A DNA stretch of 64,000 nt from Tubulanus polymorphus (Eukaryota > Nemertea > Palaeonemertea > Tubulaniformes > Tubulanidae), in assembly GCF_964204645.1 (NCBI RefSeq), contig NC_134028.1, positions 7,729,001 to 7,793,000 on the forward strand, in the 5' to 3' direction. Shown here piece by piece: positions 2,164 through 32,100 of this stretch (positions are counted from its first letter, which is position 1; the number at the start of each line of letters is the position of its first letter). The position numbers and the translations under genes are program-made. A model generated the notes under the pieces. That model ran no database searches. It saw only the letters and a program-made list of their open reading frames with translations, and was not told the origin of the DNA.

Positions 2164-5100
2164 GTAAAGTGGAATGAATATTCTGGAATTTTATGATTCA
2201 TAAAAACACATAATGTGTGGCCTTATCATGTCAGTCCATTGTTGGCGCAATGTATTAAGTACAAGTAGAAGTTTACCCCATGACATGCGCCACTAGTTCT
2301 TGCCAGTTACAAAGTCTCAGTCACATCCATATCTGTCGCATTGTAGCTCGACATAGCTTCGGTTTATCTGTACCTACCGGTACCTCCCGGGTATATGTCC
2401 CAGGGTGATTTTCACCTGACCAAATAATGTTAGATTTCCTTAAATATTTTGTCAAATATCCTCTCAAATATTAGCGTACGACAAGTGAACTTCTGTACTG
2501 ATAACCTAAAAGCTTAGAATATAGTTTAGCTCTCCGAATATGGTATATGCTTCTGTACAGAGTGAGCTTAAGAATGCTATGAATTAACAGGTTTTGGTTG
2601 ATGGATTGTCAAAATACGAACGATGCAGCAAAGATGGCTTCAGAACTTTACCGCGAGGTCATCTCCGTGCCATACATGGCAAAGTTCGTCGTTTTCTCAA
2701 AACGTCATGATACGATGGAAGCAAGATTACGCTGTTTCTGTATGACAGACGATAAAATGGAAAAAACATTAGAAGGACAAGAACATTTCGTAGAAGTTGC
2801 TCGTAGCAGAGATGTAGAGGTTTGTATTAGAAAAATTTCATCTTGCTACCTTGGGAAGGGGGGCAATTATTCAGTCTAAACGTTTGATGAAATCAGCTTT
2901 AATTTCAATTTATACATCCAACTTCCGTAATTTGTCCATTTCCAATGAGTGAAGTTTTGACTGAGAAATATGGACAGCCTAGAAAAACTATGCCCAGTTT
3001 TGGCTAAAGAATTTCATGAAGAGCCACATATTTATGATCGTTTACTAGGAACGTTGGATAAGAGATAGTAATGTTTTTTATCCGATTTCAGGTTTTAGAA
3101 GGAAAACGCCAATATGTAGAAATGGCTGGAAACTTAGTTCCAGTAACGAAGTCAGATGACCAGTTAAATCTTGTGTTCCATGCATTTAGAGAAAACCGTC
3201 TGCCGTACACTGTACGGATACGCGATTCTGACCAGGATCCTACTGGTAGAATAGCATTCATGCGGGAGCCTAAAGTTAGCCGTGGTGAGGCTCCACAAAA
3301 TCCAATATGTAACCTGAATATCACACTACAAGATTATGTAAAGGTATGGAATATAAAAGATTATTAACATAATGTACACGGGCAGATCTAGGAATTGTTT
3401 AAGGGCGTGGATCTGATAATTGTAATGGGCTCTTTATTTAAAAAAGACCGATTTGACTATGCAAGGCGCGAAGGTCTGAGGGCCCTCTCCCTAAATTTTT
3501 GAAAATTTAGGGTAAAAGGCAGCTTTTCGATTTGGAAGCATTTCACCAAGTGCGCATGGTGTCGCTCGACCCCTAGTTTAAATTTCCATTGTAAAAGAAT
3601 TTTTTCCTGGTGTCTTGGAGGGCACATTGGAATTCTGCAGGGGTGGATTGGTCCAAACTCTTAAAATAGAATTGATACCAATCATTAATTTCGTGAGAAA
3701 AGAAGAAAAAGGAAAGACTTGAGTAACTAGTTCAGTTATTGACAATTAGTTTTTCAAAACAATGTTTCTCATCAAATTTGCAGTTAGAAGAAGATTTAGA
3801 TTCAGAGGCAGCAGCTGAACTACGTAGAAAATATAAATTCTGGAAAGAAGGCATAGGTAGGTTAAAAATACATGTAGTCGATTTTCATTTGAAAATTAGG
3901 TCAATCGCTAAATGGAGTCGCCACGTTTATTTCAGTGGTGCAAGATACGATTACTAAATGCGACCTACGACTCAGCGATATCGCTGAAGCGGTTCAGGGC
4001 GACTGGGTCGCGCTTGCGCAACATTTAGGTCTTAACGATGACGAAATAATCAACATCAAAAAAGAATATCACACGCTGAGCGATCAGGCATTAGCGATGC
4101 TGCTGTTATGGCGAGAGAAATTCGGTGATGAAGCAACGGGTAAGGCGCTGAAAATAAACTATACTATTCAAACTGTATAAACCTGTACTTTAGATCAGTC
4201 TAGAATATTTCAAAATTTTCATGGTATTGCTAGAGTTAAAAGTGAGAAATTTAGAAAGACCACGATTTTTATAACCTTTTATGTGTGTTGATTAGTGCAT
4301 AAGTTGATTGTGACTATCTCTCAGAAGATGGAAGTCTTTGTTTGGTTTATGAAATAATGCTTATTACGTATATGTTGCTAGGTAGCATTGTACTGTTTCT
4401 CCATCACAATACTATAAATCTCACACATTTGATAAGATTAGATTCAAATAGATCATCTAACGTTCTGATTGGTCGTCTTGTTTGTAGGTAACAAATTAGA
4501 AGAAGCCTTAAAAGCTATAAATAGACATGATGTTGTTAAAAAATGTATGTATAATTTATCACACGTTACTGACGAAACGGAACGAGCCTTCGCCCAGATG
4601 CAAATGGAACATTCAGGTAAATGAAATTCACCATTTTCTTCTGAAAGTAATTGAAAATGTCGTCTTAATGTGCTTAATCAAAATTTTCAATCTCAGTTTA
4701 TTCAAAAATATTTAAAAAAAATCCAATCGTTTGTAGGTTTTGATGATTTAAAAGAAGAATTAGGACCATCCAGGGATTCAACAATGGGCCGTGGTCTTTC
4801 ACTCGATGTCCAATATGATGAAAATGACATGATGAAGGTATGTTTATACAAGTCCTTGAGTAACATCCAGATACTTTGCGAATTCTATCCTGTGGATTGG
4901 ATAGTTACGTAAGCAGATTTAGGCATATCATTATGAATCCCTAAATGAAAAGAGCTACACTAGTTACACAGTTGTGAATTAGTTCAACTCGTAAGATTTG
5001 AAATTGAGAGTAGTTCATTTTAGTTATTTTAAAATTCAACTCCTCACAGCTGTAGAACTGGAACCTGCGCATGTACAACAAAATGGCTCAGATCATTCGG

Positions 5101-8100
5101 ACTCTGCCAGAATACTTGCAACAATTTTCACAAAGTTCGCTGATATTATGATTCATGGGTTGTCATTAACCACTTATCGCAATCATAATTTTGCTTTGTG
5201 AAATTTTCTTAAAAATTGATAGATTGGAGACACATATTTATGTTGCAGAATCAAACAACGATTTTAGATTTTTGGCCATTTCAAGTGGTCAAGTCATTTT
5301 TCGAATACTTTCAACATGAGAAGGTATATCTAATTAAAAACTCATCTGCATTAATAATGCTTGTCGGTATGGAGGAGTTTCTGAAATGTTACGGAGGTTT
5401 TGACACGTTCGTGAAGTCCATGATATAGGATGATATTTTTTCAATGTGGATTATACGGAGTCACTGATTAGTAAAATACGGTTGATTGCATGCCGCACTT
5501 TGGAATACAGACTATTAAGGTATATTTTCAAAAAGTGTATTTGCACTGTATACGGATGTATGATTATTTTTGGCAAGTAGAAATTTTGCTTACTGGTTTA
5601 GGTGTGCTAACTAGAGTTCCATGGGGTATTTTTGATGATCGAAATTTCCCGGAAAATTAATAATGCTCCTCATTTTATTAGATTTACAGTGCTTGGTTTT
5701 GGGTGGCAAAAGCATTTTGGTTGAAATTACAAACCTTGCTTCATAACAGTTTCACTTTTCATTTAGGGATATTTTAGTCATTGAATGGTGTGTCAACCAT
5801 TTGTGAAACTCGACCATCCTTGATAAGACCCGCAAACAGTATATTATACTGGTGGTATATTATTTTGACGATCTTATAAAGGGTAGATTTAGAATGGCTA
5901 AAGATGAGAAGTTCACGAAAATTCAAGAATTTAAAAAAAAAATAGTGTTTACTCTGATTTGGAAAGCAAAGTTAAGGAAATAACTGAGATTTTTAGCCTA
6001 CTTTGGATTTAAGGCCCTGTGGGCTGTTGCGGTTTGTTTTTCATCTGTTGTCTATGCGTCTGTCTGTTCATCTATAGGATGGAATCCAGTTTTCTAGGGA
6101 AATTTTGAAGATGCTTTGATTAATTATTTCATACGTATATGTATCCCCATAGGGCCCATCATCATGAGAAAATCAGGGTCTATCAGACACAAGATATGTT
6201 CTGTGACCTTTTTGTGCCCAAAAATATAACTTTTGGCCTGAATTCCGAGGTGGCCACCTTTGTCTCTATCAGTCCTCATTCGTAGATGGAAAAAGATTTT
6301 TTGATGAAACTATCAACAGATTTTAACTTTATATAGGTTTTAACATTTCACTAAGTGGGCATGGTGTCCCTGGACCCCTACTTTCGTATAGGTATTTGGT
6401 CATTGTTCACAGATAGACCCCACGCAGTAAAAATATAGGCCTATTTAAGTTGCTATTAACATAGATTTCATGCTGGAAAAATATGCACCAGAGCCATCAG
6501 ACATTTTTCCGTATGATATTTGGCATGAGCTATTCGGTAATGGTTAATGATACTTCAATTGTACCTAATTGAAGTATCATTAAAAATTAGATGACCTTCT
6601 TGATGTGACCTACATATTTGCGCTATGTAGTCGTATATACAGATACAATAGGTTGTTATTTGGAAGTACCTCAGACCAGTGACTTCAGGATATGTAATAT
6701 CCTCATAGTTATATTGTTAAGACTTACAGAAGAAAAGAGTAATGTTGTTAGTAGGCGCATATTTCAGAATTCATGGAGTTTCCATTTTTAGCGACGGTAG
6801 CTGCAAGATTCAAGTCATTTGATTTCCATGATGATGGCACATTTTGGATTTGTTTATTGATAACTTTTATCGTGATCATGGTCAGCATACTGTACCGTTA
6901 TAGCTCATGTTGCTTCCCGAAACTGTTTCAGGAGTCGGAATCGGCTGGCGAGGAATCGGGAAGTGAAAAAGAATCGCCGAAAAAAGGTAAGCTTTGGTCT
7001 TGGTATATACTCAGATACTTTTCAGACCATTTGGAGAAGAAATGTAGGTATTCAAAAACTAATGAATTATTGCACCGTATTTCAGGTAAAGGTCATAGAA
7101 ATCATGTGCAAAAAATCTTGACTGTTTCTTTTCCTTTTGTTGTTGCGGAAAATTTTATTTTTTTTTAAAATTTTCTGGGAATTGATAGTCATGTGTTTGA
7201 CCCAGTGCCTTCATTGTGCGGTCAGTTTGCCATCAACGCTGAAAAGAATGGATTGTTTTTTTTTCATGAATAAACTTTCGAAGTCTGTACTTTTGAATCT
7301 AGATCATGGGGTATGGTTGAACAGACACTATTATCAAATTAGGACTAATCAGGGTGAAATGTGTCTGGTAACCATCACTGAAACAAATTAATACTGTGTG
7401 ATATAGGCAAAGTTAATCTTTTTAGTTAGTTTTTAACGATTCTTGGACTCTAACAAGGCTTTTTCGCTTCCATGAAATAAACCATGCCAAAAATCATGCA
7501 CATTCTACGAAATAATTTGCATTTCGATTATTAGTCTTGTTTCGTACTTTACTTATACCTTTCTATATTCTAAATATTCAAATTATCTCTTCACCGGTCA
7601 TGATAGAAAACACGATGATAAAATGAATGTCTAACAATTCATTCTCCGTATTGTAGTAATGATATAGTGATTCTGCTTTTAAGCTTGATTTACACTGGTA
7701 CATATATAAATATATATATATATACAGATATTTACTTCATAGATTGCATGCTTTCTGTTTTCTCGATGAACTTGGTTTTGATGCTCCCCGCGCCGTGGTC
7801 ACAAAATTGCACCAGCTGCCTCGATCCTATTAACCTTTTACATATATATGTATGTCTATATTGTATGCTTATGTATCGCTGTTTTAGACGATTTGCATAT
7901 CGTACCCGAGCTAGACGAACGACGCGGAGTCGTACATCCTAAATCGTCCGATGAATTATCTAATGAGCAAAAACGAAAGAAGGACGCTCTGTTAGCGTTC
8001 GCCGAGCAGATGGATTTATTAGCCGATTCACAGGCTATATCCACTGACAGTATCCCTAATGATGAAGGTATTCATTGAATATATACACAGAAATCATCGG

Positions 8101-11100: not shown

Positions 11101-14100
11101 TTACCAAATAATTGGAATTGAATTGAACCACCGAGCTCATCACTTAATGGTAGAACCATTACATGAACAGACAGATAGATTAGCAGACATCAATTCTCTG
11201 GACCACATTTTTGCAGTTCATGGAAACCTTTGAAAGTGAAAGATTTGATGTTAAACATTTTTGTTTTTTTTTCCTCAATTTTTAGTGCTTTGTTGTAAGA
11301 AGTTATAAGCATTTAAACTTGCAATATAATAAAATAGTCGCTTTGTTAACGAAAATATTATAATCAAGTTGTTATGATATGGAACACAAACAATTACCAA
11401 TTAAAGAAGCCAATTTCAAAGTAACTACGCCACTATCTGTTTAACTGCTAACAAAATCATACTGTTTCCTCCCTGACAACAGCACCGACCATCCATGAAG
11501 ACACAATTGATAAAACTGAACGTGAACCACCAGTCGAAGATTTTATAACTAAAGTCGATACGTTGAAAGATGAAGGCGTAGATGAACGCATGTCTGTTTC
11601 TAGCGAGGAAGGTGAAGATAAAAAAGGTATATTCAGTGTACAACAAAACTGAGCATCCGAAATCTGTTGATGAAGTGTCTCCACACATGAAAAATATCCT
11701 CTAACTCGCTGCTTTAACTTATTGCACTATTTTGGAAGTTCTTCACTCTGTCGAAAACTGAAAATAGCAAATAAAAGGCTAACAGATGTTCCGCTTACCA
11801 ACCTGCTAAACTTTAACAAAATGGCTTCTATTTAAGACAAGCTTTTTCTGCTTACACAATAGCAAACAATTCTTATAGCATTCAATTGGGAGTTGCGTTT
11901 ACTAGTACTGCAATATCAAAGTTATTTACTTCGTTTTGTTTGCCTCATGTTTGTTAAGATAAGCTTGGTGAAGTGTCTCACATATAGGATTAGCTTCATT
12001 TTAAGTCTATACACTTGCTTCGTACATCACAAATGATTCAAGGCACGCTGCCTCAGATAGGCCCTGTCCAAGTATAGAGCAACATTTTTGTTCGTTTTAT
12101 TATTATCTAGTTTTGATTTTCAATTCTATTGATATTGAATATCATTGACTGGAGGGGATTAGTTAGGCTATATGGTTTTGCTTTAATCAAGTTAACTTGA
12201 TTGCACTGATCACTTTTTCAGATCACGATGCTACTAAGACACCACCCCCAACACCTAATGAAAATAAAGGTATCTGCTGGTTATATACTCTTTAACACAC
12301 AACATATATTAAAGAAGATCTTTGTGGTGAAGAAGCTTAGCCTATTGTCTGCTTTGCATCTTTAATGCAATTAATTCCCTGATGGACTAACCAGATTTGA
12401 TATTCACGAATGTGGTTTTCATTTTTCTTGAATCGATTATGTATATTGTACTTTCTATTTGCCATCTTTGTCAGTGTTCCTAAGATTTGGAAGAAAAAAT
12501 CACAAAATTCATTCTGCTGCTTGCCTGGCAATTGTTTGCTCCTTTGAAGTACAACTAAGCAGAACTCGATCTTACCGTAACTTTGCTCAGTCATATATCA
12601 CTTTTCAAAATCCTAATTTCTCAATTTGTCAAATCATGTATCATTCCCCTCTACGAGTTTATCATAGCATGTTCATACTAATTAGAAATCTACTCTGAAA
12701 TGTCCCTGCTGTTTGTTAGAAATTCTGGTTTCTTCCCCACAATGATCTATCTTTTATAACAGGTGAACATCAGTATCATACCATACATTGATTTATCGAG
12801 GTATATTCTAAATTTCCGAGAATTTAGTAGATATAACATAAATCTATTCTTAGGCCATCTTTTTTTATTATAAGTTGGATTACGGATTTGACAAACTTGA
12901 AACGATTGGGAGGTGGGAAAAAAATTAGAAAAACATTTTGAACAATTTTTTTAATTTTTTTACTTAAAACTTAGAATTCGTTAATAATTTAGTGATTGGG
13001 CATTTGAAAAAAATTTTGCTTCATTTTGGAAGGCATTTTGGATAATAATACCTGAATGTTGTCTATTTACTGCCTACACTCATAACTGACGCCGGCATAT
13101 TTGTAAGTGACACTATTACTGAACGAACCTGACAAATATATTCGTTAGAATTACCATTGTCCATTGTCAATTGTGATTTTTTGTGTGTGATGTCAAAAGA
13201 TCATGTGGCAGTGAAAAAAATGATAAATTTTTATTTTTATTTTCATATCTATGCTTAAAAATAAGGGGGGCGGCAGGCAAAAAAGAATTTTTTTTAATAC
13301 CTAGAATCGGAAAATTTCTACGGCTGATCTGTAATCCAACTAATAATAGAAAAACTGCCTTCCAAAACAACGAAGACAAATTTCTAAGTTTTTTAATTTG
13401 AATGAAGCTAACAATTATAATCCCTCTCAAAATATAAGTTTCTGTTGAAGTTCTGTTTAGTTATGTTCTAAAAGATCCTAAAATTTGCCATTAAGTTTGT
13501 TTGAATCATTCCGATTTGCACCAGGTCGACTCATATCTTCTCAACTCACTGTTTAAATACATTGTGTTATATTGGTACACTATTTCAATGAAAAGAATCG
13601 CATGAGATACCTGGCCTTTGTGAATGATGTGCTTGTTCATGTTCGGGTGTTTGGATACAAGTTGTTGATTCAAATCTATTTGACAATGATCAACCAGCAG
13701 GTGCACTTTGAACTCATACCCTTCTTAAAAACCCATCCTTTTATGGTATCCTTTTTTGTTTACGTTGTGGCAAATATCCGCAGATTCTTATAGTTCAGTG
13801 TAAGGATGAAAACGTAATTACATAAAAGAAGAGTACAGAAAACTGAGGAACTGTTTTTATACATTAAGCAAAATATATATCTCAATCCTATGTAAATGTA
13901 TATATGTATATTCACGCTGCTTAAAGGTGATTTATATGAAGAGCGAATTACAGAGGTTGAAGAATGGGACGGTTCTAAGTGGACTAAAAGAAAAGTTGTT
14001 ACTAGAGTAAAGAAAGGTATAAAAGAATCGTAATTCGTTGGCTTTGCCTGATGATTTGAGTGGACAATAGGTGGCGTTGTTTAGCATTTAGTGTTTCATT

Positions 14101-17100
14101 CGTTGTTTCATTAGTTCCGTCACTACAGAGGTATAGTCCTTAACTACCTCTTCACTAGAGGTAGTCTTTAACTATCTCATCACTACAGAGGTAGGCTCAT
14201 GCTACCAACATGTCACCACTTTTCATCACCTTGCGAGTTTGATTTGCTGCTTTCGAATGGTAAAAATGGATCTGTTATGTTTGGATGGATCTCGTCTCTA
14301 TGAAGATGTTACAGTGATGACTTTGTATGGCTGATCTATGCAACATGAACCGTAAATGAGATCCATTCTTATTATGTTGTTGATAGTTCGATCTATCACA
14401 TCAAAAACACTTCTCACTCCTCCTCAGTATCCCTACCCTTTAATGTTCAACTGGCTTTGAATATTTGTTTGACACATGTCCTTACTCCTTGATGATAAAC
14501 TGGTGGTCTTTTCATGAGCCAGAAATATAAAGTATATAATATAAGGAGGTATTGAGAAAAGATTTGGTTTGAAATTTTGTTGTGAATATTATGTAGATGT
14601 TGTACCGTAAGTTTGTCTGAGTAAATAGAGAAAATGAGAGAAAATATTATGTGTCATTGTTAGAGGTTGATAAGTAACAGGCACCAGTGATTTTTGTGAA
14701 GTGCTGTATTATTTTTTCAAGCACCATTCTCATACTAAATCTGTTCTATAAATGATCAGTTCATCAGAATTTAAAGGAAAAGTAATTTTTTTTTCAAATT
14801 CATTCAATACATATCAATCTGTTTCATGTTGAGATTTTTATTGACGTAATGGGATGTTCCACATTTTTTTTGTTTTGCCAGTCTCTACATAACTCATTGC
14901 TGTAATTGTGGTTGATTTATCATTTCAGATGTCCAAAAAGAGTCAGGAACTAATTACGATGAAGTCGCTGCTCGTCTCGCCCAAACTGAAGAGTGGGTTT
15001 CACAAGATGATCTACTTGCACCAGAGAATGCACCTAAAACCATGGCAGCTCCAGAACCCGGTAGGTATCTTTAAACCATTATTCAAGCTCCATTGAAGAG
15101 CTACGTATTTCTAATGATGATGTTTCCCATCATTGGTTCCTTCTGAAATGTCTTGGTTTCATTGATTGTTTTTGCTAAAATGTTTTGCTGACTTGTAATA
15201 TTTTTGAGTGTTGGAGGTTAAAAACTATCAAGCAATTTTCAATAATTTGCTTATGTCGCTGAACTGTGACATGACTTATAGACTTAAGAATATTCCTTTG
15301 AAACAGATCTTGCTAACTGTCGTGCTAATGCTTTTAACAGATTTTGCTAGGCAGTCGATCTTGGTTTCTTAGTGTTTTTAGTACATGTTTGATCGTTCAT
15401 GTTTGCTCATTGTAATGCATTTACATTTTAAAACTTAAATATCAAAATATTCCTTGATCATTATATTATATACAAATCTTATTTGAATCTAATTCTTCTG
15501 TTTTTAATTTTTTTACATCTTCTTGCTTTGTTGTTTGTGGTGTTGTCCTCATCAGTTTGTCTCGTTTGAGTTGTCCTTTGTCCTAGATTACTTTGCACTT
15601 GTCCTTAATTACATGCACAATTTATAAACTTCACCTTAGATTGGAAAAATCAAGATATCGTGGATAAGGGTCATAGATATTGGCTCATATGTATCCAGAG
15701 ATATATTTGTCAATGCACCTACATGTAATGAGAAAAAAGAATATTTTCCTCAAATGCACTGCTTGTCCTCGTTAGCTAGTTAGTAAACCCACCCACCCTA
15801 TGTTGTGTAGTAGTTAGTTAGTTGTGAAGCACGATTACAGTGTAACAGCTAGTGTTAGAGCAGCTTATAACAGCGCGTGACAACTATAATCCACTACTAC
15901 TACATCTACTACTGCTGCTTTCGATTGACAAGTTTATGAAGAATAGTTTGGTCTTGCATCTACGCCCTCCTACTAAACATCTTAAAGGTAAATAACATAT
16001 GTAACAATCATAATACCCCGGTCAAACTTACAGTATCTTCCCCATTTCGTATATTGCTGAAGCAGAGAAAAGTACCGGTAGTTATGATTTAGCAAGTCTG
16101 AGTATTCGACTGCTGTCTGGCTAACTATGTATAGCTGGTCAATTTCTGAGAATGATTCGTGTAATGCCATTTTGCTGCTTCACTGCTATGCTTACTGTAT
16201 CGGATCATTTGTGTCAACTTCAGCGTCAGATTCCATATCACATTTATTTCTTAATTGCTATCATTTTGTTAGACCAGTCCCGCTGATCATTCTCCAGGGA
16301 AGTGAACTTGACATAAGTGTCTTGTTATTTTTTATCAAATGTGCTTAGTTTTTTGTCACTGTCTACTTTCAGTTGCCTCAGAAGCTGTTGAGCCAGCAGA
16401 AGCTGCACAATTTTTTGAGGAACCAGATGAACCTGAGGTCCTTACTGAAGTGGAAGAAGTCGATGAAACTCTTCCCGATGGAACTAGAATCAAGAAGCGC
16501 ATCACACGTAAAATCACGACAACACGCGCAGGCACTGACGTTCAAACTTTCGAAGAAATTATTTCCAGTGAGCCTCCAGAGGATGAGCCGGAAATCACAA
16601 CAGAGGTTGAAGAAGTCGATGATGTTCTTCCTGATGGCACCAGAATCAAGAAGCGTATCACTCGAACAATAACCAAGAGTCGCTCTGGAACAGATGTTCA
16701 AACTTTCGAGGAGATAATTTCAAGACAACCTCCTGAAGTTACACAGGATGACTCCGTTGATGCCCAGTATGTTCCAGATGTTTCTTCAGAGTCAATAGAA
16801 GTTCCTGCAGATGAAACAGTTAAAGTACAAACAGAAGTCATTAAAGGAGAACCGACTTCGGAGACTGATGTACAAGAGTTTGAGGAAACTCTGCCCGATG
16901 GAACAATTGTTAAACGCCGTGTAATGAAAACTAGGACAACACAGGACATCACTACACGAATCACTGCAGAGGGATACGGTTTAGAAGATGATGCTGTTGA
17001 TCAATACGTAGAAGAATATCAAGATGGAGATGTTATTGAAGGAGAACCCGAAACTGATACACAAGTTGAAGAATTTGAGGAAACTTTGCCCGATGGCACA

Positions 17101-20100
17101 CTTGTCAAACGTAAAGTAATCAAAACACGTACTACACAGAGTGTCACTACGAAATCTGTAAGTGATGAATTCTTGGATCAGACATCGTCCGATCAAGGTA
17201 AGTTTGATTCTTTACTGGTACTGAAACCATAGAGCATAGAGCTATCCATACAATCAGTCCCGACTGATGAATGTATGAAAGAATATTGATATCAAAGCTA
17301 GATTAGTGATAATGCTGTTATATCATGAGCTGACTAACAGACCTAAACCAAGTTTAACCCAATCATAATGCACAAAATTCGATGCACACTATAAGATTTG
17401 GTATCATTTTTGTTGTGGATCTGTGTGGATTTGTCAAACCAGCTCTTGATCAAATGTTTCATACTAGCTAATGAGGAGTTCTGGCATTGATATTGTAACT
17501 AAGTGTATTGCAAATTTTCTCAAATAACAAAACTTTCAGGTGCTCAAGATGAAAGTGAAATTATAAGTGCAGCTTTTAGTGATTTAGTTAATGGTAAAAC
17601 TGATATAAATGGTTCTGTAGATAGTAGAATATCTGCTTCATCTTCAGTGTCTAGTGAATGTCAGGCATTAATGGGAGAGACTGAAATGAGTGAACAAAGC
17701 ACCTTAACCCCAGAATATTTGGATGAGGAGGCAAATGATACATATCTTTACACAAAAACTATTTCACAACATGAACCAATAGATACAGCAACTTTTGAAT
17801 GTGATACAGATAAATTGCACATACAAGTTGATACAAAACTAGATCAAACAAATGTTTCTCCAACTCCTAGCACTGATATCCTCTCCCCTATTTCATTAAG
17901 CTCCACCAAAGACAATGACAAAGAACTAAGATTAGAAGAGATAGAAAAAGAAACGGACACAGGTCAGGACCAAAAACCCATAATGTCCCCTGACAAAGAA
18001 ATTGAGGTTGCTCTTCTCAAAAGTGAAGAACTTCCTGAATTATCCCCTGGACAAACTGAATGCAAACACATAGAAGAGTTCATAGAAGAGAAGGATAAAA
18101 TGGTAAAGATAAATGAACCTGATAAAATGGTTGAGATAAATAAACCTGAAATTTCACAGAAAGTGGAAATGATTTCTACTACAGATGATTCTCGAAAAGA
18201 TAAAACTCCAAAACCAGTGACAGTATTTATTCAAAAACCTGATATTGGTACATTCTATACGGATAGGCAATCAGAAATTTTAGGGTATGAAAAGCCACTT
18301 GATACCGAGCAAAACAGTATTCCTGAGGAAATAGGTTATGAGGCCAAATCTGAGAAGATACCAACCAATTCATCTATGGGTGAAACTGAAGCTGCAACTG
18401 AAGTAAATCCAATAGAAGAGATATCTACACCTGAGCAAAAAGAGGAGGAGGTATCACCTCACGATGATGCCCTTGGGCCAAAAGATATTCGATCACCTGT
18501 CTCAGATGAGGTATTAAAACCTAAGGCTGAAGAGTCTTCACCTGAACAGGTATTATCTCCACTAACTGAGTTCACCTTTAGTGAACATGAAATTTTGACT
18601 AAAGACAACCCAGTAGAAGTATCTCAACTATCCAAGATTTCCCCCAGTGAACCTGAAGCTTTGACTGAAGACAAAGAACTAGAGGTTATATCAGCGCCTG
18701 AGCTAAAATTGATCGCATCTCCTGTCTCAGATGAGGTATTAAAACCTGAGACTGAAGAACTTTCACCTGATGAGTTATTATTTCCACTATCTGAGGTCAC
18801 CCCTAGTGAACCGGCAGTTTTGACTGAAGACAAACCAACAGAGGTTATATCAGCACCTGCGCCAAAAGAGATTAAATCTCCTGTCTCAGATAAGGTATTA
18901 AAACCTGAGGCTGAAGAGCCTTCACCTGAAGAGGAATCATTGCCACTCTCTGAGGTAACCCCTGGTGAACCTGAAGTTTTGAGAGAAGACAAACCAACAG
19001 AGGTCATATCAGCACCTGAGCCAAAAGAGATTCAATCTGCTGTCTCAGAGGATGTTTCAAAACCTGAGGCTGGTGAGCTTACCCCTGGTGAGGATGCATT
19101 ACCAATTATTGCGGTTACCCCTGGTGAACCTGAAGCTTTGACTGAAAAGAAACCAATAGAGGTCGTATCAGCACCTGATCCAAAGGAGATTCAATCTCCT
19201 ATGTCAGATGAGGTATTAGAACCTGAGGCTGAAGAGCCATCACCCGAACAGGTACCATCTCCACTCTCTGAGGTTACCCCTGGTGAACCTGAAGTTTTGA
19301 CTGAAGACAAACCAACTGAGGTTATATCAGCACCTGAGCCAAAAGAGATTCAATCTGCTGTCTCAGAGGATGTTTCAAAACCTGAGGCTGGTGAGCTTAC
19401 CCCTGGTGAGGATGCATTACCAATTATTGCGGTTACCCCTGGTGAACCTGAAGCTTTGACTGAAAAGAAACCAATAGAGGTCGTATCAGCACCTGATCCA
19501 AAGGAGATTCAATCTCCTATGTCAGATGAGGTATTAGAACCTGAGGCTGAAGAGCCATCACCCGAACAGGTACCATCTCCACTCTCTGAGGTTACCCCTG
19601 GTGAACCTGAAGTTTTGACTGAAGACAAACCAACTGAGGTTATATCAGCACCTGAGCCAAAAGAGATTCAATCTGCTGTCACAGAGGATGCTTCAAAACA
19701 GGAGGCTGATGAGCTTACCCCTGGGGAGGAAGCATTACCAATTATTGAGGTTACCCCTGGTGAACCTGAAGCTTTGACTGAAAAGGAACCAACAGAGGTA
19801 ATATCAGCACCTGATCCAAAAGAGATTCAATCTCCCGTGTCGGATGAGGTATTAAAACCTGAGGCTGAAGAGCCATCACCTGAACAGGTACCATCTCTAA
19901 TATCTGAGGTTACCCCTAGTGTACCTGAAGTTTTGACTGAAGGCAAACCAATAGAGGTCATATCAGCACCTGAGCCAAAAGAGATTCAATCATCTGTGTC
20001 AGATGAGGTATCAAAACCTGAGGCTGAAGAGCCATCACCTGAAGAGGTGTTATCTCCACTATCTGAGGGGACACCTAGTATACCTGAGGTTTTGACTGAA

Positions 20101-23100
20101 GACAAACCAACAGAGGTCATATCAGCACCTGAGCCAAAAGAGATTCAATCACCTTTGTCAGATGAGATATTAGAATCTGAGGTTGAAGAGCCATCATTTG
20201 AACAGGTACCATCTCCAATATCTGAGGTTACCCCTGGTGAACCTGAAGCTTTGACTGAAGACAAACCAACTGAGGTCATATCAGCTCCTGAGCCAAAAGA
20301 GATACAATCTGCTGTCTCGGAGGATGTTTCAAAACCTGAGGCAGATGAGCTTACTCCTGGGGAGGAAGCATCACCAATTATTAAGGTTATCCCTGGTGAA
20401 CCTGAAGCTTTGACTGAAGAGAAACCAACAGAGGTTCTATCAGTACCTGAGCCAAAGGAGATTCAATATCCTGTGTCAGATGAGGTATTAGAACCTCAGG
20501 CTGAAGAGCCATCACCCGAACAGGTATTATCTCCACTCTCTGAGGTTACCCCTGGTGAACCTGAAGTTTTGACTGAAGACAAACCAACTGAGGTTATATC
20601 AGCACCTGAGCCAAAAGAGATTCAATCTGCTGTCTCAGAGGATGCTTCAAAACAGGAGGCTGATGAGCTTACCCCTGTAGAGGTACCATCTCCAATATCT
20701 GAGGTCACTCCTGGTGAACCTGAAGTTATGATTGAAGACAAATCAACAGAGGTTATATCAGCAACTGCGCCAACAGAGATTCAATCTCCTGTTTTCAATG
20801 AGGCATTAAAACCTGAGGCTGATGACCTTACTCCAGCAGAGGAAGCATCTCAAAAATCCATGATCACCCCTGCTAAACTTGAAGCTTTGACCGAAGAAAA
20901 ACCAACAGAGGTTATATCAGCACCTGAGCCAAAAGAGATTCAATCTCCTGTCGCAGATGAGGTAATAAAACCTGGGGCTGACGAGCCATCACCTGAACAG
21001 GTACCATCTCCAATATCTGACGTTACCCCTAGTGTACCTGAAGTTTTGACTGAAGGCAGACCAACAGAGTTCATATCAGCACCTGAGCCAAAAGAGATTC
21101 AATCTCCCGTGTCGGATGAGGTATTAAAACCTGAGGCTGACGAGCCATCACCTGAACAGGTACCATCTCCAATATCTGACGTTACCCCTAGTGTACCTGA
21201 AGTTTTGACTGAAGGCAGACCAACAGAGGTCATATCAGCACCTGAGCCAAAAGAGATTCAATCTCCTGTGTCATCAGATGAGGTATTAAAACCTGAGGCT
21301 GAAGAGCCATCACCTGAACAGGTACCATCTCCAATATCTGACGTTACCCCTAGTGTACCTGAAGTTTTGACAGAAGGCAGACCAACAGAGGTCATATCAG
21401 CACCTGAGCCAAAAGAGATTCAATCTCCTGTGTCATCAGATGAGGTATTAAAACCTGAGGCTGAAGAGCCATCACCTGAACAGGTACCATCTCCAATATC
21501 TGAGGTTACCCCTAGTGTACCTGAAGCTTTGACTGAAGACAAACCAACTAAGGTCATATCAGCACCTGAGCCAAAAGAGATTCCATCTCCTGTGTCAGAT
21601 GAGGTATTAAAACCTGAGGCTGAAGAGCCATCACCTGAACAGGTACCATCTCCAATATCTGACGTTACCCCTAGTGTACCTGAAGTTTTGACAGAAGGCA
21701 GACCAACAGAGGTCATATCAGCACCTGAGCCAAAAGAGATTCAATCTCCTGTGTCATCAGATGAGGTATTAAAACCTGAGGCTGAAGAGCCATCACCTGA
21801 ACAGGTACCATCTCCAATATCTGAGGTTACCCCTAGTGTACCTGAAGCTTTGACTGAAGACAAACCAACTAAGGTCATATCAGCACCTGAGCCAAAAGAG
21901 ATTCCATCTCCTGTGTCAGATGAGGTATTAAAACCTGAGGCTGAAGAGCCATCACCTGAACAGGTACCATCTCCAATATCTGAGGTTACCCCTAGTGTAC
22001 CTGAAGTTTTGACTGAAGGCAAACCAACGGAGGTCATATCAGCACCTGAGCCAAAGGAGATTCAATCTCCTGTGTCAGATGAGGTATTAAAACCTGAGGC
22101 TGAAGAGCCATCACCTGAACAGGTACCATCTCCAATATCTGAGGTTACCCCTAGTGAACCTGAAGCTTTGACTGAAGACAAATCGACTGACGTCATATCA
22201 GCCCCTGAGCCAAACGAGATTCAATCTGCTGTCTCAGAGGATGTTTCAAATCCTAAGGCTGGTGAGGTTACCCCCGGGGAGGAAGCATTACCAATTATTG
22301 AGGTTACCCCTGGTGAACCTGAAGCTTTGACTGAAAAGAAACCAACAGAGGTCATATCAGCACCTGATCCAAAGGAGATTCAATCTCCTGTGTCAGATGA
22401 GGTATTAGAACCTGAGGCTGAAGAGCCATCACCCAAACAGGTACCATCTCCACTCTCTGAGGTTATCCCTAGTGAACCTGAAGTTTTGACTGAAGACAAA
22501 CCAACTGAGGTTATATCAGCACCTGAGCCAAAAGAGATTCAATCTGTTGTCTCAGAGGATGCTTCAAAACAGGAGGCTGATGAGCTTACCCCTGTAGAGG
22601 TACCATCTCCAATATCAGAGGTCACTCCCGGTGAACCTGAAGTTATGACTGAAGACAAATCAACAGAGGTTATATCAGCACCTGCGCCAACAGAGATTCA
22701 ATCTCCTGTTTTCAATGAGGCATTAAAACCTGAGGCTGATGAGCTTACTCCAGCAGAGGAAGCATCTCCAATATCCATGGTCACCCCTGCTAAACTTGAA
22801 GCTTTGACCGAAGAAAAACCAACAGAGGTTATATCAGCACCTGAGCCAAAACAGATTCAATCTCCTGTCGCAGATGAGGTAATAAAACCTGAGGCAGAAG
22901 AGCCTTCACCTGAACAGGTACTATCTCCAATATCTGAGGTTACTCCTAGTGTACCTGAGGTTTTGACTGAAGGCAAACCAACAGAGGTCATATCAGCACC
23001 TGAGCCAAAAGAGATTCAATCTCCTGTGTCGGATGAGGTATTGGAATCAGAGGCTGAAGAGCCATCACCTGAAGAGGTATTATCTCCACTATCTGAGGCC

Positions 23101-26100
23101 ACCCCCAGTGTAACTGCAGTTTTGACTGAAGGCAAACCAACAGAGGTCATATCAGCACCTGAGCCTAAAGAGATTCAATCTGCTGTCTCAAAGGATGTTT
23201 CAAAACCTGAGGCTGGTGAGCTTACCCCTGGGGAGGAAGCATTACCAATTATTGAGGTTACCTCTGGTGAACCTGAAGCTTTGACTGAAAAGAAACCAAC
23301 AGAAGTCATATCAGCACCTGATCCAAAGGAGATTCAATCTCCTGTGTCAGATGAGGTATTAGAACCTCAGGCTGAAGAGTTATCACCCGAACAGGTACCA
23401 TCTCCACTCTCCGAGGTGACCCCTAGTGAACCCGAAGTTTTGATCAAAGACAAACCAACGCAGGGTATAGCAATACCTGAGCCAAAGGAGATTGAATCTC
23501 CTGTCTCAGAGGATATATCCAAAACTAAGGATGAAGAGCCTTCACCTGAAGAAAATATGTCTCAACTATCTGAGGTGACCCCTGGTGAACCTGAAGCTTT
23601 GACTCAAGATAAACTAACAGAGGTCATATCAGCACCTGAGCCAGAGGAGATTCAATTTCTTGTGTCGGATGAGGTATTGGAACCTGAGGCTGAAGAGCTA
23701 TCGCCAGAACAGGTACCATCTCCAAAATCTGAGGTTACCCCTATTGAACCTGAAGTTTTGACTGAAGACAAACCAACAGAGGTCATATCAGCACCTGAGC
23801 CAGAGGAGATTGAATCCCCTGTCTCGGCAGAGGATGTTTCAAAGCCTGAGGCTGATAAGCTTACTCCTGCAGAGGGACCATCTCCATTATCTGAGGTTAC
23901 CCCTAGTGAACCTGAAGATTTGAGTGAAGACAAACCAACTGAGGTTATATCAGCACCTGAGCCAAAACAGATTCAATCTTCTGTCTCAGATGAGTTATTG
24001 GAACCTGAGGCTGAAGAGCGATCACCTGAACAGGTATTATCTCCACTATCTCAGGTTACCCCTAGTGTACCTGAAGCCTTGACTGAAGACAAACCAACAG
24101 AGGTCATATCAGCACCTGCGCCAAAATGGATTCAATCTGTTGTCTCAGAGGATGTTTTAAAACAGTTGGCTGATGAGCTTACTCCTGGGGAGGAAGCATC
24201 ACCAATTACTGAGGTTACCCCTGGTGAACCTGAAGCTTTGACTGAAGAGAAACCAACAGAGGTCATATCAGCACCTGATCCAAAGGAGATTCAATCTCCT
24301 GTGTCAGATGAGGTATTAGAACCTGAGGCAGAAGAGCCTTCACCTGAAGAAGATACGTTTCAACTATCTGAGGTGACCCCTGGTGAACATGAAGCTTTGA
24401 CTGAAGATAAACCAACTGAGGTCATATCAGCACCTGAGCCAAAAGAGATTCAATCTCTTGTGTCGGAAGAGGTATTGGAACCTGAGGCTGAAGAGCTATC
24501 ACCAGAACAGGTACCATCTCCAATATCTGAGGTTACCCCTATTAAACCTGAAGTTTTGACTGAAGACAAACCAACAGAGGTCATATCAGCACCTGAGCCA
24601 GAGGAGATTGAATCTCCTGTCTCGGCAGAGGTTGTTTCAAAGCCTGAGGCTGATGAGCTTACTCCTGCAAAGGTATTATCTCCATTAACCGAGGTTACCC
24701 CTAGTGAACCTGAAGCTTTGACTGAAGACAAACCAACTGAGGTTATATCAGCACCTGAGCCAAAAGAGATTCAATCTCCTATATCAGAGGATATATCTGA
24801 AACTGAGGCTCATGAGCCTCCACCTGAAGAAGATATGTCTCAACTATCTGAGGTGACCCCCGGTGAACCTGAAGCTTTGACTGAAGATAATCGAACAGAG
24901 GTCATATCAACACCTGATCCAAAGGAGATTCAATCTCCTGTGTCAGATGAGGTATTAGAACCTGAGGCTGAAGAGCCATCACCCGAACAGGTACCATCTC
25001 CACTCTCTGAGTTTACCCATAGTGAACCTGAAGTTTTGATTGAAGACAAACAGACGCAGGTTATAGCAATACCTGAGCCAAAGGAGATTGAAACTCCTAT
25101 CTCAGAGGATGTATCTAAAACTGAGGCTGAAGAGCCTTCACCTGAAGAAGATACTTTTCAACTATCTGAGGTGACCCCTGGTGAACATGATGCTTTGACT
25201 GAAGATAAACCAACTGAGGTCATATCAGCACCTGAGCCAAAAGAAATTCCATCTCTTGTGTCGGATGAGGTATTGGAACCTGAGGCTGAAGAGCCATCAC
25301 CCGAACAGGTACCATCTCCACTCTCTGAGTTTACCCATAGTGAACCTGAAGAGGCTAAGGAGCCTTCACCTGAAGAAGATACATTTCAACTATCTGAGGT
25401 GACCCCTGGTGAACATGAAGCTTTGACTGAAGATAAACCAACTGAGGTCATATCAGCACCTGAGCCAGAGGAGATTGAATCTCCTGTCTCGGCAGAGGAT
25501 GTTTCAAAGCCTGAAGCTGATGAGCTTACTCCTGCAAAGGTATTATCTCCATTATCCGAGGTTACCCGTAGTGAACCTGAAGCTCTGACTGAAGACAAAC
25601 CAACTGAGGTTATATCAGCACCTGAGCCAAAAGAGATTAAATCTCCTATATCAGAGGATATATCTGAAACTGAGGCTCATGAGCCTTCACCTGAAGAAGA
25701 TATGTCTCAACTATCTGAGGTGACCCCCGGTGAACCTGAAGCTTTGACTGAAGAAAATCGAACAGAGGTCATATCAGCACCTGATCCAAAGGAGATTCAA
25801 TCTCCTGTGTCAGATGTGGTTTTAGAACCTGAGGCTGAAGAGCCATCACCTGAACAGGTACCATCTCCACTCTCTGTGTTTACCCATAGTGAACCTGAAG
25901 TTTTGATTGAAGACAAACAGAAGCAGGTTATAGCAATACCTGAGCCAAAGGAGATTGAAACTCCTATCTCAGAGGACGTATCTAAAACTGAGGCTGAAGA
26001 GCCTTCGCCTGAAGAAGATACTTTTCAACTATCTGAGGTGACCCCTGGTGAACATGATGCTTTGACTGAAGATAAACCAACTGAGGTCATATCAGCACCT

Positions 26101-29100
26101 GAGCCAAAAGAAATTCAATCTCTTGTGTCGGATGAGGTATTGGAACCTGAGGCTGAAGAGCCATCACCCGAACAGGTACCATCTCCACTCTCTGAGTTTA
26201 CCCATAGTGAACCTGAAGAGGCTAAGGAGCCTTCACCTGAAGAAGATACGTTTCAACTATCTGAGGTGACCCCTGGTGAACATGATGCTTTGACTGAAGA
26301 TAAACCAACTGAGGTCATATCAGCACCTGAGCCAAAAGACATTCAATCTCTTGTGTCAGATGAGGTATTGGAACCTGAGGCTGAAGAGCCATCACCAGAA
26401 AAGGTACCATCTCCAATATCTGAGGTTACCCCTATTGAACCTGAAGTTTTGACTGAAGACAAACCAACAGAGTTCATATCAGCACCTGAGCCAGAGGAGA
26501 TTGAATCTCCTGTCTCGGCAGAGGATGTTTCAAAGCCTGAGGCTGATGAGCTTACTCCTGCAGAGGTACCATCTCCATTATCTGAGGTTACCCCTAGCAA
26601 ACATGAAGCTTTGACTGAAGACAAACCAACTGAGGTTATATCAGCACCTGAGCCAAAACAGATTCAATCTCCTGTCGCAGATGAGGTATTGGAACCTGGG
26701 GCTGAAGAGCCATCACCTGATGAGGTATTATCTCCGCTATCTGAGGGCACCCCTAGTGTACCTGAAGATTTGACTGAAGGCAAACCAGCAGAGGTCATAT
26801 TAGCACCTGAGCCTAAAGAGATTCAATCTCCTGTGTCAGATGAGGTATTAAAACCTGAGGCTGAAGAGCCATCACCTGAACAGGTACCATCTCCAATATC
26901 TGAGGTTACCCCTAGTGAACCGGAAGTTTTGATCGAAGACAAACCAACGCAGGTTATAGTAATAATACCTGAGCCAAAGGTGATTGAATCTCCTATCTCA
27001 GAGGAAATATCTGAAACTGAGGCTCATGGGCCTTCACCTGAAGAAGATAAGTCTCAACTATCTGAGGTGACCCCTGGTGAACCTGAAGCATTGACTGAAG
27101 ATAAACCAACTGAGGTCATATCAGCACCTGAGCCAACAAGGATTCAATCTCCCATGTCGAATGAGGTATTAGAACCTGAGGCTGAGGAGCCATCACCTGA
27201 AGAGGTGTTATCTCCACTATCTGAGGGGACACCTAGTATACCTGAGGTTTTGACTGAAGACAAACCAACAGAGGTCATATCAGCACCTGAGCCAAAAGAG
27301 ATTCAATCACTTTTGTCAGATGAGATATTACAATCTGAGGTTGAAGAGCCATCATTTGAACAGGTACCATCTCCAATATCTGAGGTTACCCCTGGTGAAC
27401 CTAAAGCTTTGACTGAAGACAAACCAACTGAGGTCATATCAGCTCCTGAGCCAAAAGAGATACAATCTGCTGTCTCGGAGGATGTTTCAAAACCTGAGGC
27501 AGATGAGCTTACTCCTGGGGAGGAAGCATCACCAATTATTAAGGTTATCCCTGGTGAACCTGAAGCTTTGACTGAAGAGAAACCAACAGATTTTCTATCA
27601 GCACCTGATCCAAAGGAGATTCAATCTCCTATCTCGGAAGATTTATCTATAACTGAGGCTGATGCGCTTACTCCTGCAGAGATACCATCTCCATTATCCA
27701 AGGTTACCCCTAGAGAACCTGAAGCTTTGAGTGAAGACGAACCAACTGAGGTTTTATCAGCACCTGAGCTAAAACAGATTCAATCTCCTTTCTCAGATGA
27801 GGTATTGGAACCTGAGGCTGAGGAGCCATCACCTGAACATGTATCATCGCCAATATCTGAGGTGACGCCTAGTGAACTTGAAGTTTTGACTGAAGACAAA
27901 CCAATAGCGGTCGTATCAGCACCTGAGCCAGAGGAGATTGAATCTCGTGTCTCGGCAGAGGATGTTTCAAAACAGGAGGCTGATGAGCTTACTCCTGCAA
28001 AGGTATTATCTCCATTATCCGAGGTTACCCCTAGTGAACCTGAAGCTTTGACTGAAGACGAGCCATCTGAGGTTATATCAGCTCCTGAGCCAAAACAGAT
28101 TCAATCTCTTGTCTCTGATGAGGAATTAAAACCTGAGGCTGATGAGCTTACTCCTGGGGAGGAAGAATCTCCAATTATTGAGATTACCCCTGGTGAACCT
28201 GAACCTTTGACTGAAGATAAACCAACAGAGATTATATCAGCACCTGAGCCAAAAGAGATTCAATCTCCTGTCTCAGATAAGGTATTGAAACCTGAGGTGA
28301 CCCCTGGTGAACATGATGCTTTGACTGAAGATAAACCAACTGAGGTCATATCAGCACCTGAGCCAAAAGACATTCAATCTCTTGTGTCAGATGAGGTATT
28401 GGAACCTGAGGCTGAAGAGCCATCACCAGAAAAGGTACCATCTCCAATATCTGAGGTTACCCCTATTGAACCTGAAGTTTTGACTGAAGAAAAACCAACA
28501 GAGGTCATATCAGCACCTGAGCCAGAGGAGATTGAATCTCCTGTCTCGGCAGAGGATGTTTCAAAGCCTGAGGCTGATGTGCTTACTCCTGCAGAGGTAC
28601 CATTTCCATTATCTGAGGTTACCCCTAGCGAACATGAAGTTTTGACTGAATACAAACCAACTGAGGTTATATCAGCACCTGAGCCAAAACAGATTCAATC
28701 TCCTGTCGCAGATGAGGTATTGGAACCTGGGGCTGAAGAGCCATCACCTGATGAGGTAATATCTCCACTATCTGAGGGTACACCTAGTGTACCTGAAGAT
28801 TTGACTGAAGGCAAACCAGCAGAGGTCATATTAGCACCTGAGCCTAAAGAGATTCAATATCCTGTGTCAGATGAGGTATTAAAACCTGAGGCTGAAGAGC
28901 CATCACCTGAACATGTACCATCTCCGATATCTGAGGTGACGCCTAGTGAACCCGAAGTTTTGATCGAAGACAAACCAACGCCGGGTATAGCAATACCTGA
29001 GCCAGAGGAGATTGAATCTCCTGTCTCAGAGGATATATCCAAAACTAAGGCTGAAGAGCCTTCACCTGAAAAAAATATGTCTCAAATATCTGAGGTGACC

Positions 29101-32100
29101 CCTGGTGAACCTGAAGCTTTGACTCAAGATAAACTAACAGAGGTCATATCAGCACCTGAGCCAAAAAAGATTCAATCTCTTGTGTCGGATGAGGTATTGG
29201 AACCTGTGGCTGAAGAGCTATCGCCAGAACAGGTACCATCTCCAATATCTGAGGTTACCCCTATTGAACCTGAAGTTTTGACTGAAGACAAACCAACAGA
29301 GGTCATATCAGCACCTGAGCCAAAAGAGATTCAAACTCCTGTGTCAGATGAGGTTTTAGATCCTGAGGCTGAAGAGCCATCACCTGAACAGGTACCATCT
29401 CCACTCTCTGAGGTTACCCCTAGTGAAGCTAAAGTTTTGACTGAAGACAAACCAACACAGGTTATATCAGCACCTGAGCCAAAAAAGATTGAATCTCCTG
29501 TGTCAGCAGAGGATGTATCAAAACAGGAAGTGGATGAGCTTACTCCTGCAGAGGAAGCATCTCCAATATCTGTGGTCACCCCTGTTGAACCTGGACCTTT
29601 GACTGAAGACAAACCAACTGAGGTTATATCAGCACCCGAGCCAAAAGAGATTCAATCGGCTGTCTCAGAGGATGTTTCAAAACAGGAGGCTGATGAGCTT
29701 ACTCCTGTCAAGGTATTATCTCCATTTTCTGAGGTTACCCCTAGCGAACCAAAGGTGATTGAATCTCCTGTCTCAGAGGATATACCTAAAACTGAGGTTG
29801 AAGAGCCTTCACCTCAACTATCTGAGGTAACCCTTGGTGAACCTGAAGCTTTAACTAAAGATAAACCTACTGAGGTTATAATAGCGCCTGAGCCTAAAGA
29901 TTATCAATCTCCTGTGTTGGATGAGGTATTAGAATCTCAGGCTGAAGATCCATCACCTGAAGAGGTGTTATCTCCACTACCTGAGATCACCCCTTGTAAA
30001 CCTGAAGTTTTGACTGAAGACAAACATGCAGAGGTTATAATAGCACCTGAGCCAAAGGAGATTCAATCTCCTGTGTCAGATGAGGTGTTAAAACATGAAG
30101 CTGAAGAGCCATCACCTGAACAGGTACCATCTCCAATATCTGAGGTTACCCCTGTTGAACCTGAAGCTTTGACTGAAAAGAAACCAACAGAGGTTATATT
30201 AGCACCCGAGTCAAAAGAAATTCAATCTCCTGTCTCAGATGAGGTATTAATACCTGAGGTGGAAGAGCCTCCGCCTGAACAGGTAATATCCTCATTATCT
30301 GAGGTCACCCCTAGTGAGCCTGAAAGTTTCACTGACGACAAACCAACCGAGGTGATATCACCACATCAGCCAAAAAAGATTCAATCTCCTGTCTCAGAGG
30401 ATGTAACAAAACCACCACCAGACACCAAACCTACTGACCGAGATAAGTTAATTTACGATACAGATTCTTTGGAGATCCCCGCTGTAGACCACACTGAAGA
30501 GGTTATCATAGCTAAAAATGATACTCTGAAATGCGTTACTACTGTGGAATTAGCTGTGGAAGTCAATGATGTCCAAGAGCAACCCAAACATGTTGCTGGA
30601 GTCAACATTATGCTTGTCAGCACTGAGCCCAAAGATCATGATTCCACAAAATCTCATTTTAGGTCATCATTTTATCGAAATGTAGAGGAATTTGATGAAA
30701 TACACATATGTGTTCCCTACCCTGAACATTATGCAACTGAAATTTCGTTAATTCCATTTATAAATGTGATGTCTGAGATTCCTCAGAGACATATCAGTGA
30801 ATTAGTTCTTACACAGACCGATGCTGATGCACCATCTGTAGATCATAGTGAGGAAACAAGAAGCATATCACGGACCAGTATTGATCTCTCTGTCACATCC
30901 TCAGTATCTCCATCCTCTGAAAAGTCTAGTCCGATTGACAGTATTCCATTACAGCCATCAGATTCAGTGACAGTTATGAAATCTGAACTCCATGCACCAC
31001 GTTTAACAGTTGAAAAGGTTGTACTATCTAGTTGCACTAGTGAAAGTGACTCCACTGAAACTGAAAGCCTCATTGAGCCTCTTAGGATAACTCATAATAT
31101 TGATCATTCTGAAAGATTTGTTCAAACATCACGTTCCACTATATATGTTCCAGAAAAAAAGCGACAAACTTTGACCACCTACAGCAACCTCCTCTATGAA
31201 ATCTCACCCGACCAACTTCCCCAGACAGAGAGATCAGAGGCTGGACTGAAGGTAGCATTAGAACAAATAACTGTTCATCCAGGATTACAAAAAGTCATCG
31301 GAGCAGAGAGGGGAGAGTCTGATATCATAGTTGCTGGATCTGGTGTTCTGAGAACTAGTTTACCAAAAGAGTCTTTAGCTCATATTGTGCAATGTATTCA
31401 AACCTCACCACAAGAACATATAAAATCTGATCACTCTACTCGCATACACTCCTCTGCACATCCAAAACCAACGGTCCAACGTTCAGCCCAGTACTCTGGA
31501 GAAGCGGGCATATTCTTCTCTCATCATGAGCGCGATATGGAACTAACTGAGGCGTATTATTCCTGGGGTAGAGAACTTGTGATACAAGAAGGTTCAACGT
31601 ATAACACTCGTGATATTGTAACCGATACGGAATATACTGATGTTGTTGAATGTGAACGTTCCGAAAATGTAATTGTGTCTGAGCCAAAAACTGGTCTCAT
31701 TCAAATCGATGAAACTATTATGGCTGAGTCCGAATTAGAGCGTCGGAAATCATTGGCATTTCTTGTCGATAAATACAATAAGTCTGGTGAATACAGTGTC
31801 AATGGACAAAAAAGTTCTGATTCTCAGTTAGATGTTAATATCGAGGCCTCTTCAATATCTGTGGGTGAGAGTCAGACATTCCCAGACCATGAATCTTGTG
31901 ATAAAGAAAACGATTCCAAACCTGCTAAGGAAAAGTCACAGAAAAAGAAGAAAAAACATGTCGAGCAGGTGGCTGGATCTAGTAGTCCAGGTACTTTCCT
32001 AGCTAGTGATTCCATCTTTCTATATCCCTTGCACTGATGAATTCTAGACAATAGAACTGATCCTTCCTCGTGGTACTCAAGTAAACCTCAGGGATAGAAT

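Follow-up and report, generated by a model that had tools for sequence, protein, structure and literature searches.

Mammalian ANK1 has an internal promoter between exons 39 and 40, from which sAnk1.5 arises; this protein is described as having a transmembrane segment in the sarcoplasmic reticulum (SR) and an obscurin-binding tail (PMC10199891). Exon 39A was described as a unique start exon (PMC3188430), and 39a as comprising part of intron 39 together with sANK1's first exon (PMC4848520). In the open-access literature searched, membrane-anchored small ankyrins are described for mammalian ANK1 only; no invertebrate small ankyrin was found there. For protostomes and echinoderms, long ankyrin exons placed after the death domain have been reported (PMC5135030), and seven hydrophobic domains are ascribed to the giant tail of UNC-44 AO13 (PMC7159925).

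We analysed the 3′ part of an invertebrate ankyrin gene, in an intron of which an alternative start had been proposed from inspection of the DNA (the sequence-only reading). We concluded that the region 6773-6931 is probably a real alternative first exon, giving rise to a single-pass, membrane-anchored ankyrin that comprises the tail only.

The host gene and the phases of its tail exons

The window, i.e., the whole stretch of 64 kb that was analysed, corresponds to C4:7729001-7793000 of a genome of 267.8 Mb in 77 contigs. It carries the 3′ part of the gene. The domain order ZU5-UPA-death domain is present: ZU5 was matched some 4 kb upstream of the start of the window, and UPA_2 and Death within it. 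The second UPA exon also matched PDB chains named Ankyrin-3, Ankyrin-2 and Ankyrin-1. The following features were assigned:

2592-3343, plus strand: UPA domain (UPA_2, PF17809; Pfam match), two exons of the full-length ankyrin
3936-4139, plus strand: Death domain exon of the full-length ankyrin (PF00531, E 5.6e-12)
6766-6767, plus strand: AG, candidate acceptor for a trans-spliced leader or for an intron of the 5′ untranslated region (score 3.75)
6773-6931, plus strand: candidate alternative first exon, 53 codons (open frame), encoding the N-terminus, a predicted transmembrane span (residues 23-41) and RYSSCC
6932-6986, plus strand: common adapter exon, 55 nt, phase 0 in and phase 1 out (acceptor, donor, consistent phases)
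7888-8067, plus strand: tail exon, phase 1-1 (phase check)
11483-11626, plus strand: tail exon, phase 1-1 (phase check)
12222-12269, plus strand: tail exon, phase 1-1 (phase check)
13927-14016, plus strand: tail exon, phase 1-1, carrying one hairpin-like motif (phase and motif check)
14929-15060, plus strand: tail exon, phase 1-1 (phase check)
16373-17197, plus strand: tail exon, phase 1-1, carrying four hairpin-like motifs (phase and motif check)
17540-32037, plus strand: first giant open block (the open frame stops at 32037, which is not proven to be a splice site)
36328-44172, plus strand: second giant open frame (stop to stop)
46638-53927, plus strand: third giant open frame (stop to stop)

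The giant open frames, which are located 3′ of the death domain, comprise 4844, 2614 and 2429 codons, and the first of them is preceded by an in-phase acceptor. The host gene possesses the very long exon after the death domain by which a bilaterian giant ankyrin is recognised. This position of the long exons is the ground on which we call the gene invertebrate. Two of the giant frames contain different repeat arrays whose units are multiples of three, one of 159 bases (53 codons) at 18641-30413 in the first frame and one of 54 bases (18 codons) at 37061-42732 in the second. Antisense to the second frame, the minus strand holds an open frame of 1718 codons (37056-42212), for which the 54-base repeat is the most likely cause.

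The exon upstream of the candidate ends at 4837 in phase 0, and the exon at 7888 requires phase 1, its phase-0 reading meeting a stop. Full-length transcripts therefore need the 55-nt exon or a phase equivalent. The donor following 6986 reads AAG/GTAAGC. When 6986 was joined to 7888, as had been proposed, translation of the joined exons revealed that the reading frame remains open. The earlier designation of a phase-0 tail exon applies to the start of 6932-6986, which ends in phase 1. Since this adapter converts phase 0 to phase 1 and all six tail exons checked (6/6) are phase 1-1, a start at 6773 could feed any of them. More generally, the series of a 0-to-1 adapter and six consecutive phase 1-1 exons between 6932 and 17197 means that exons of the tail could be skipped freely.

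The candidate first exon and its hydrophobic span

Upstream of the adapter exon, and in its frame, 53 codons are open from the ATG at 6773 to 6931 and continue through the acceptor into 6932-6986; the nearest in-frame upstream stop is TAG 6752-6754. The best 19-residue window of hydrophobicity comprises residues 23-41, directly followed by RYSSCC at residues 42-47. ATG, upstream stop, open codons, hydrophobic span (given as residues 24-41) and RYSSCC had all been recorded by the sequence-only reading and were recovered here by direct inspection. Its acceptor at 6,931 needed a small correction, as the AG ends at this position and the shared exon begins one base later, at 6932.

The 71 residues encoded by the candidate exon and the adapter matched no Pfam family at E values up to 1. 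Three PDB chains were hit with E values of 0.57 to 3.3, which we took as chance. A protein search of the genome with the candidate frame gave one other match only (E 0.92), and a DNA search, which skips very common words, matched the frame's own locus and inverted repeat and nothing else. Neither genome search supported an origin of the 53-codon frame from a repeat or transposon. Among relatives sought in IMG/VR, 31 stretches fitted a pattern and none was confirmed. About 190 bases upstream of the ATG, an inverted repeat with 23-nt arms (91% complementary, 6 nt between them) is located at 6538-6589, for which the DNA search of the genome matched only its own place.

Residues 23-41 gave a hydrophobicity sum of -3.28. 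In the complete tail of 544 residues, only four windows were at or below zero, and all of them begin at residues 22-25. Past residue 53, no window did better than +13.39, and the best one across the three giant frames was +8.64. A single-sequence AlphaFold model exhibited a helix at residues 21-47, with block pLDDT values of 82 and 85 for residues 21-40 and an overall mean of 66.1. The transmembrane prediction that had been suggested for residues 1-53 returned one span by hydrophobicity and a helix in the model, and an N-terminal transmembrane span is predicted for the alternative start. Acidic residues precede the span and basic ones follow it, an arrangement that would fit a cytosolic C-terminus. 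Cysteines 46-47 could be palmitoylated. A sarcolipin-like helix was also considered, using reference letters confirmed by lookup, and was not supported; the score of 28, compared with a mean of 23.6, was equalled by 16% of 25 GPCR segments of the genome.

Chance, codon usage and signals for start and splicing

The main rival, which we regard as unlikely, is that the 53 codons are ordinary intron beside the acceptor 6931, open, ATG-started and hydrophobic by accident. An order-4 Markov model trained on the introns of the host gene was used to simulate 148,873 AG sites. In-phase ATG frames of at least 53 codons occurred at 979/148,873 sites, a number favouring an accident, as does the readiness with which T-rich introns may code for hydrophobic residues. 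Against it, a frame of this length combined with a 19-residue span at least as hydrophobic was found at 2/148,873 sites and, when at least 25 codons sufficed, a span this hydrophobic at 9/148,873; as the thresholds were the values of the target itself and the site was chosen from 64 kb, these counts are guides, not strict probabilities. The introns of the host gene hold 59 real open frames that reach 53 codons, and none of them contained a span as hydrophobic. A mixed, partly coding set of real DNA (parts of the window, L001, L002 and the flanks of 40 fetched loci; 16,579 AG sites) gave two matches, both of which belonged to one frame flanking a kinase or GPCR locus. This sole frame reads like a genuine receptor helix. 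Thus, the combination of a 53-codon frame and a hydrophobic span is unlikely to be reached by chance.

Codon usage was evaluated with a model trained on 36 kinase/GPCR matches from 40 fetched loci of the genome; L008 and L020-L022, whose matches contained stops, had been left out beforehand, and some exon ends in the codon sets are a few bases off with the frame kept. The 53 codons exceeded 97.8% (synonymous measure) and 99.1% (all codons) of the open intronic windows. Their score was reached by 3/59 (synonymous) and 4/59 (all codons) of the separate intronic frames. The corresponding values were 4/59 and 2/59 after training on GPCRs only, and 5/59 and 14/59 after training on kinases only. Among 434 true coding windows, the target lay at the 12.7th (synonymous) and 6.0th (all codons) percentile. 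The host gene's own exons ranged from -0.25 to +0.28 (synonymous measure, smaller training model), so that the target, at about 0, falls within their range. Codons 1-14 scored -0.13, nearer to introns than to coding DNA, and codons 15-53 +0.04, the spread of short windows being equally large. The coding signal is intermediate, i.e., suggestive and not strong, and the fact that several intronic frames equal it counts in favour of an accident.

The AG ending at 6931 scored 6.62, within the range of 13 acceptors of the host gene (-2.8 to 11.6, left one out), and 1.3% of 940 AGs, 6931 itself included, scored at least as high. For the start of a shorter transcript, the AG at 6767, five bases before the ATG, may serve as acceptor; its score was reached by 9.3% of the 940 AGs. 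Its use in full-length transcripts was rejected, because the phase-0 donor would then read NSWSFHF followed by a stop. The region 6500-6772 holds nine ATGs, and the one at 6742 opens a frame overlapping the start. If a leader were joined at AG 6767, these nine ATGs would be removed. In the context of the ATG at 6773, base -3 is T and base +4 is G. The T at -3 and the upstream ATGs count against a start at this site.

Attempts were also made to identify a promoter upstream of 6773 by scanning for consensus motifs. The TATATA at 6634 is separated by 39 bases, more than usual, from an initiator-like site at 6671. TATA-like matches numbered 5 (1.9 expected), and initiator, E-box, MEF2 and CArG matches were at or below expectation, MEF2 and CArG being absent from the 500 bases upstream of the start. 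The scan did not find a convincing core promoter, and the upstream motifs show neither a promoter nor a link to muscle. Such motif counts say little about an internal promoter; their outcome lends no support to the start and is again on the side of an accident.

The same region permits another, improbable explanation, in which the AG ending at 6814 serves as acceptor in part of the full-length transcripts, so that 39 codons, the span among them, are inserted between the death domain and the tail. This AG is in phase 0 and scored 3.68, similar to AG 6767, and codons 15-53 looked better than codons 1-14, a difference within the spread of short windows. However, 9.6% of the 940 AGs scored as high. 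Ankyrin repeats are cytosolic, so that an internal span would put the tail outside, while the charges around the span argue for a cytosolic C-terminal side.

Reading 6773-6931 as an alternative first exon starts from features that are directly visible in the DNA, namely the frame, the phases, the hydrophobic span and the splice signals, together with their rarity by chance. Transcription would begin in the intron that separates the adapter exon from the exon with its end at 4837; alternatively, AG 6767 would receive a short leader by splicing or trans-splicing. Translation from the ATG at 6773 would read straight through the acceptor 6931 of full-length transcripts into 6932-6986, the donor of which would then join any phase 1-1 tail exon. 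The N-terminus of the product would be short, acidic and outside or luminal, followed by one transmembrane helix, a basic, cysteine-bearing and possibly palmitoylated stretch on the cytosolic side, and a disordered acidic ankyrin tail with or without the giant blocks. Expression of the product, its topology, the choice of membrane and its partners are inferred. Phases, translation and the upstream position of the domains predict an in-frame ankyrin tail lacking repeats, ZU5-UPA and death domain. The anatomy is as the earlier reading had expected for a tail-only product. Such a product would attach the tail to a membrane in the absence of the spectrin-binding head. Its site may be the SR of muscle or, since the tail also bears the giant blocks, a neuronal membrane.

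Comparison with small and giant ankyrins

Like sAnk1.5, the candidate places an alternative start within the 3′ part of an ankyrin gene and fuses a predicted N-terminal transmembrane span to the ankyrin tail, and would lack repeats, ZU5-UPA and death domain (PMC10199891, PMC3188430, PMC7023976). The mammalian start exon 39A is described as unique (PMC3188430), whereas the unique part found here extends, in the 5′ direction, an exon required by full-length transcripts. In addition, the start described here lies just after the death-domain exons with the giant blocks downstream, while the mammalian promoter is placed between exons 39 and 40 (PMC10199891).

The five motifs of the tail gave a further opportunity for comparison. 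Between 13927 and 17197, two tail exons contain five diverged copies of T.VEE...DG[ST]..K[KR], and LPDGT is present in four of the five. By eye, they resemble ANK1 GNIVTKKIIRKV. The amplification of hairpins that had been claimed for this region is real in the sense of five repeat copies; the likeness of these copies to the obscurin-type motif of the ANK1 tail was not significant in three tests (phmmer, shuffles, profile search), and comparing the profiles pairwise gave a weak signal (E 0.006, probability 6%).

It might be supposed that the candidate is a true orthologue of ANK1 exon 39a, ancestral to bilaterians and acting in muscle SR via obscurin (UNC-89) and SERCA. We consider this highly improbable. 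The layout is the same, the basic hairpin is in register with that of ANK1 in the weak pairwise comparison mentioned above, and C. elegans has UNC-89 (PMC7023976). None of the three tests on the tail motif was significant, however. The likeness of the helix to sarcolipin was equalled by GPCR helices as stated, MEF2 and CArG were absent upstream, and the position after the death-domain exons does not correspond to that of the mammalian promoter. Furthermore, the first exon is without sequence similarity to the presumed sequence of the sAnk1 exon: the 71 residues aligned with a score of 26.0 (shuffle mean 25.9), and 46.8% of 1000 segment shuffles scored as high. Homology of the first exon to the mammalian exon is not supported by this alignment. 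The sAnk1-type layout proposed by the sequence-only reading was therefore upheld as anatomy and not as homology. On paper, the candidate would work like a small ankyrin, and descent from one is not supported.

Tentatively, we suggest that a giant-ankyrin gene may possess its own membrane-anchored, tail-only product, with the adapter exon doubling as the end of an alternative first exon and the tail being placed either on the head or on a helix. If so, the giant tail including its repeat blocks would be a membrane tether independent of spectrin that evolved apart from mammalian sAnk1, and it could be tested separately from the spectrin-binding head. The product could also be considered as a membrane partner of UNC-89/obscurin in the muscle of invertebrates. 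An invertebrate case unrelated to the mammalian one would mean that the ankyrin tail has been hung directly on a membrane more than once.

With Drosophila Ank2 and C. elegans UNC-44 AO13 the host gene shares the family and the long exons after the death domain, which is where such exons are placed in protostomes and echinoderms (PMC5135030). Both of these proteins carry the ankyrin head, whereas the candidate product would be devoid of it. Unlike UNC-44 AO13, the giant frames of this gene do not contain a hydrophobic span at the threshold applied; the sole span is situated at the alternative start.
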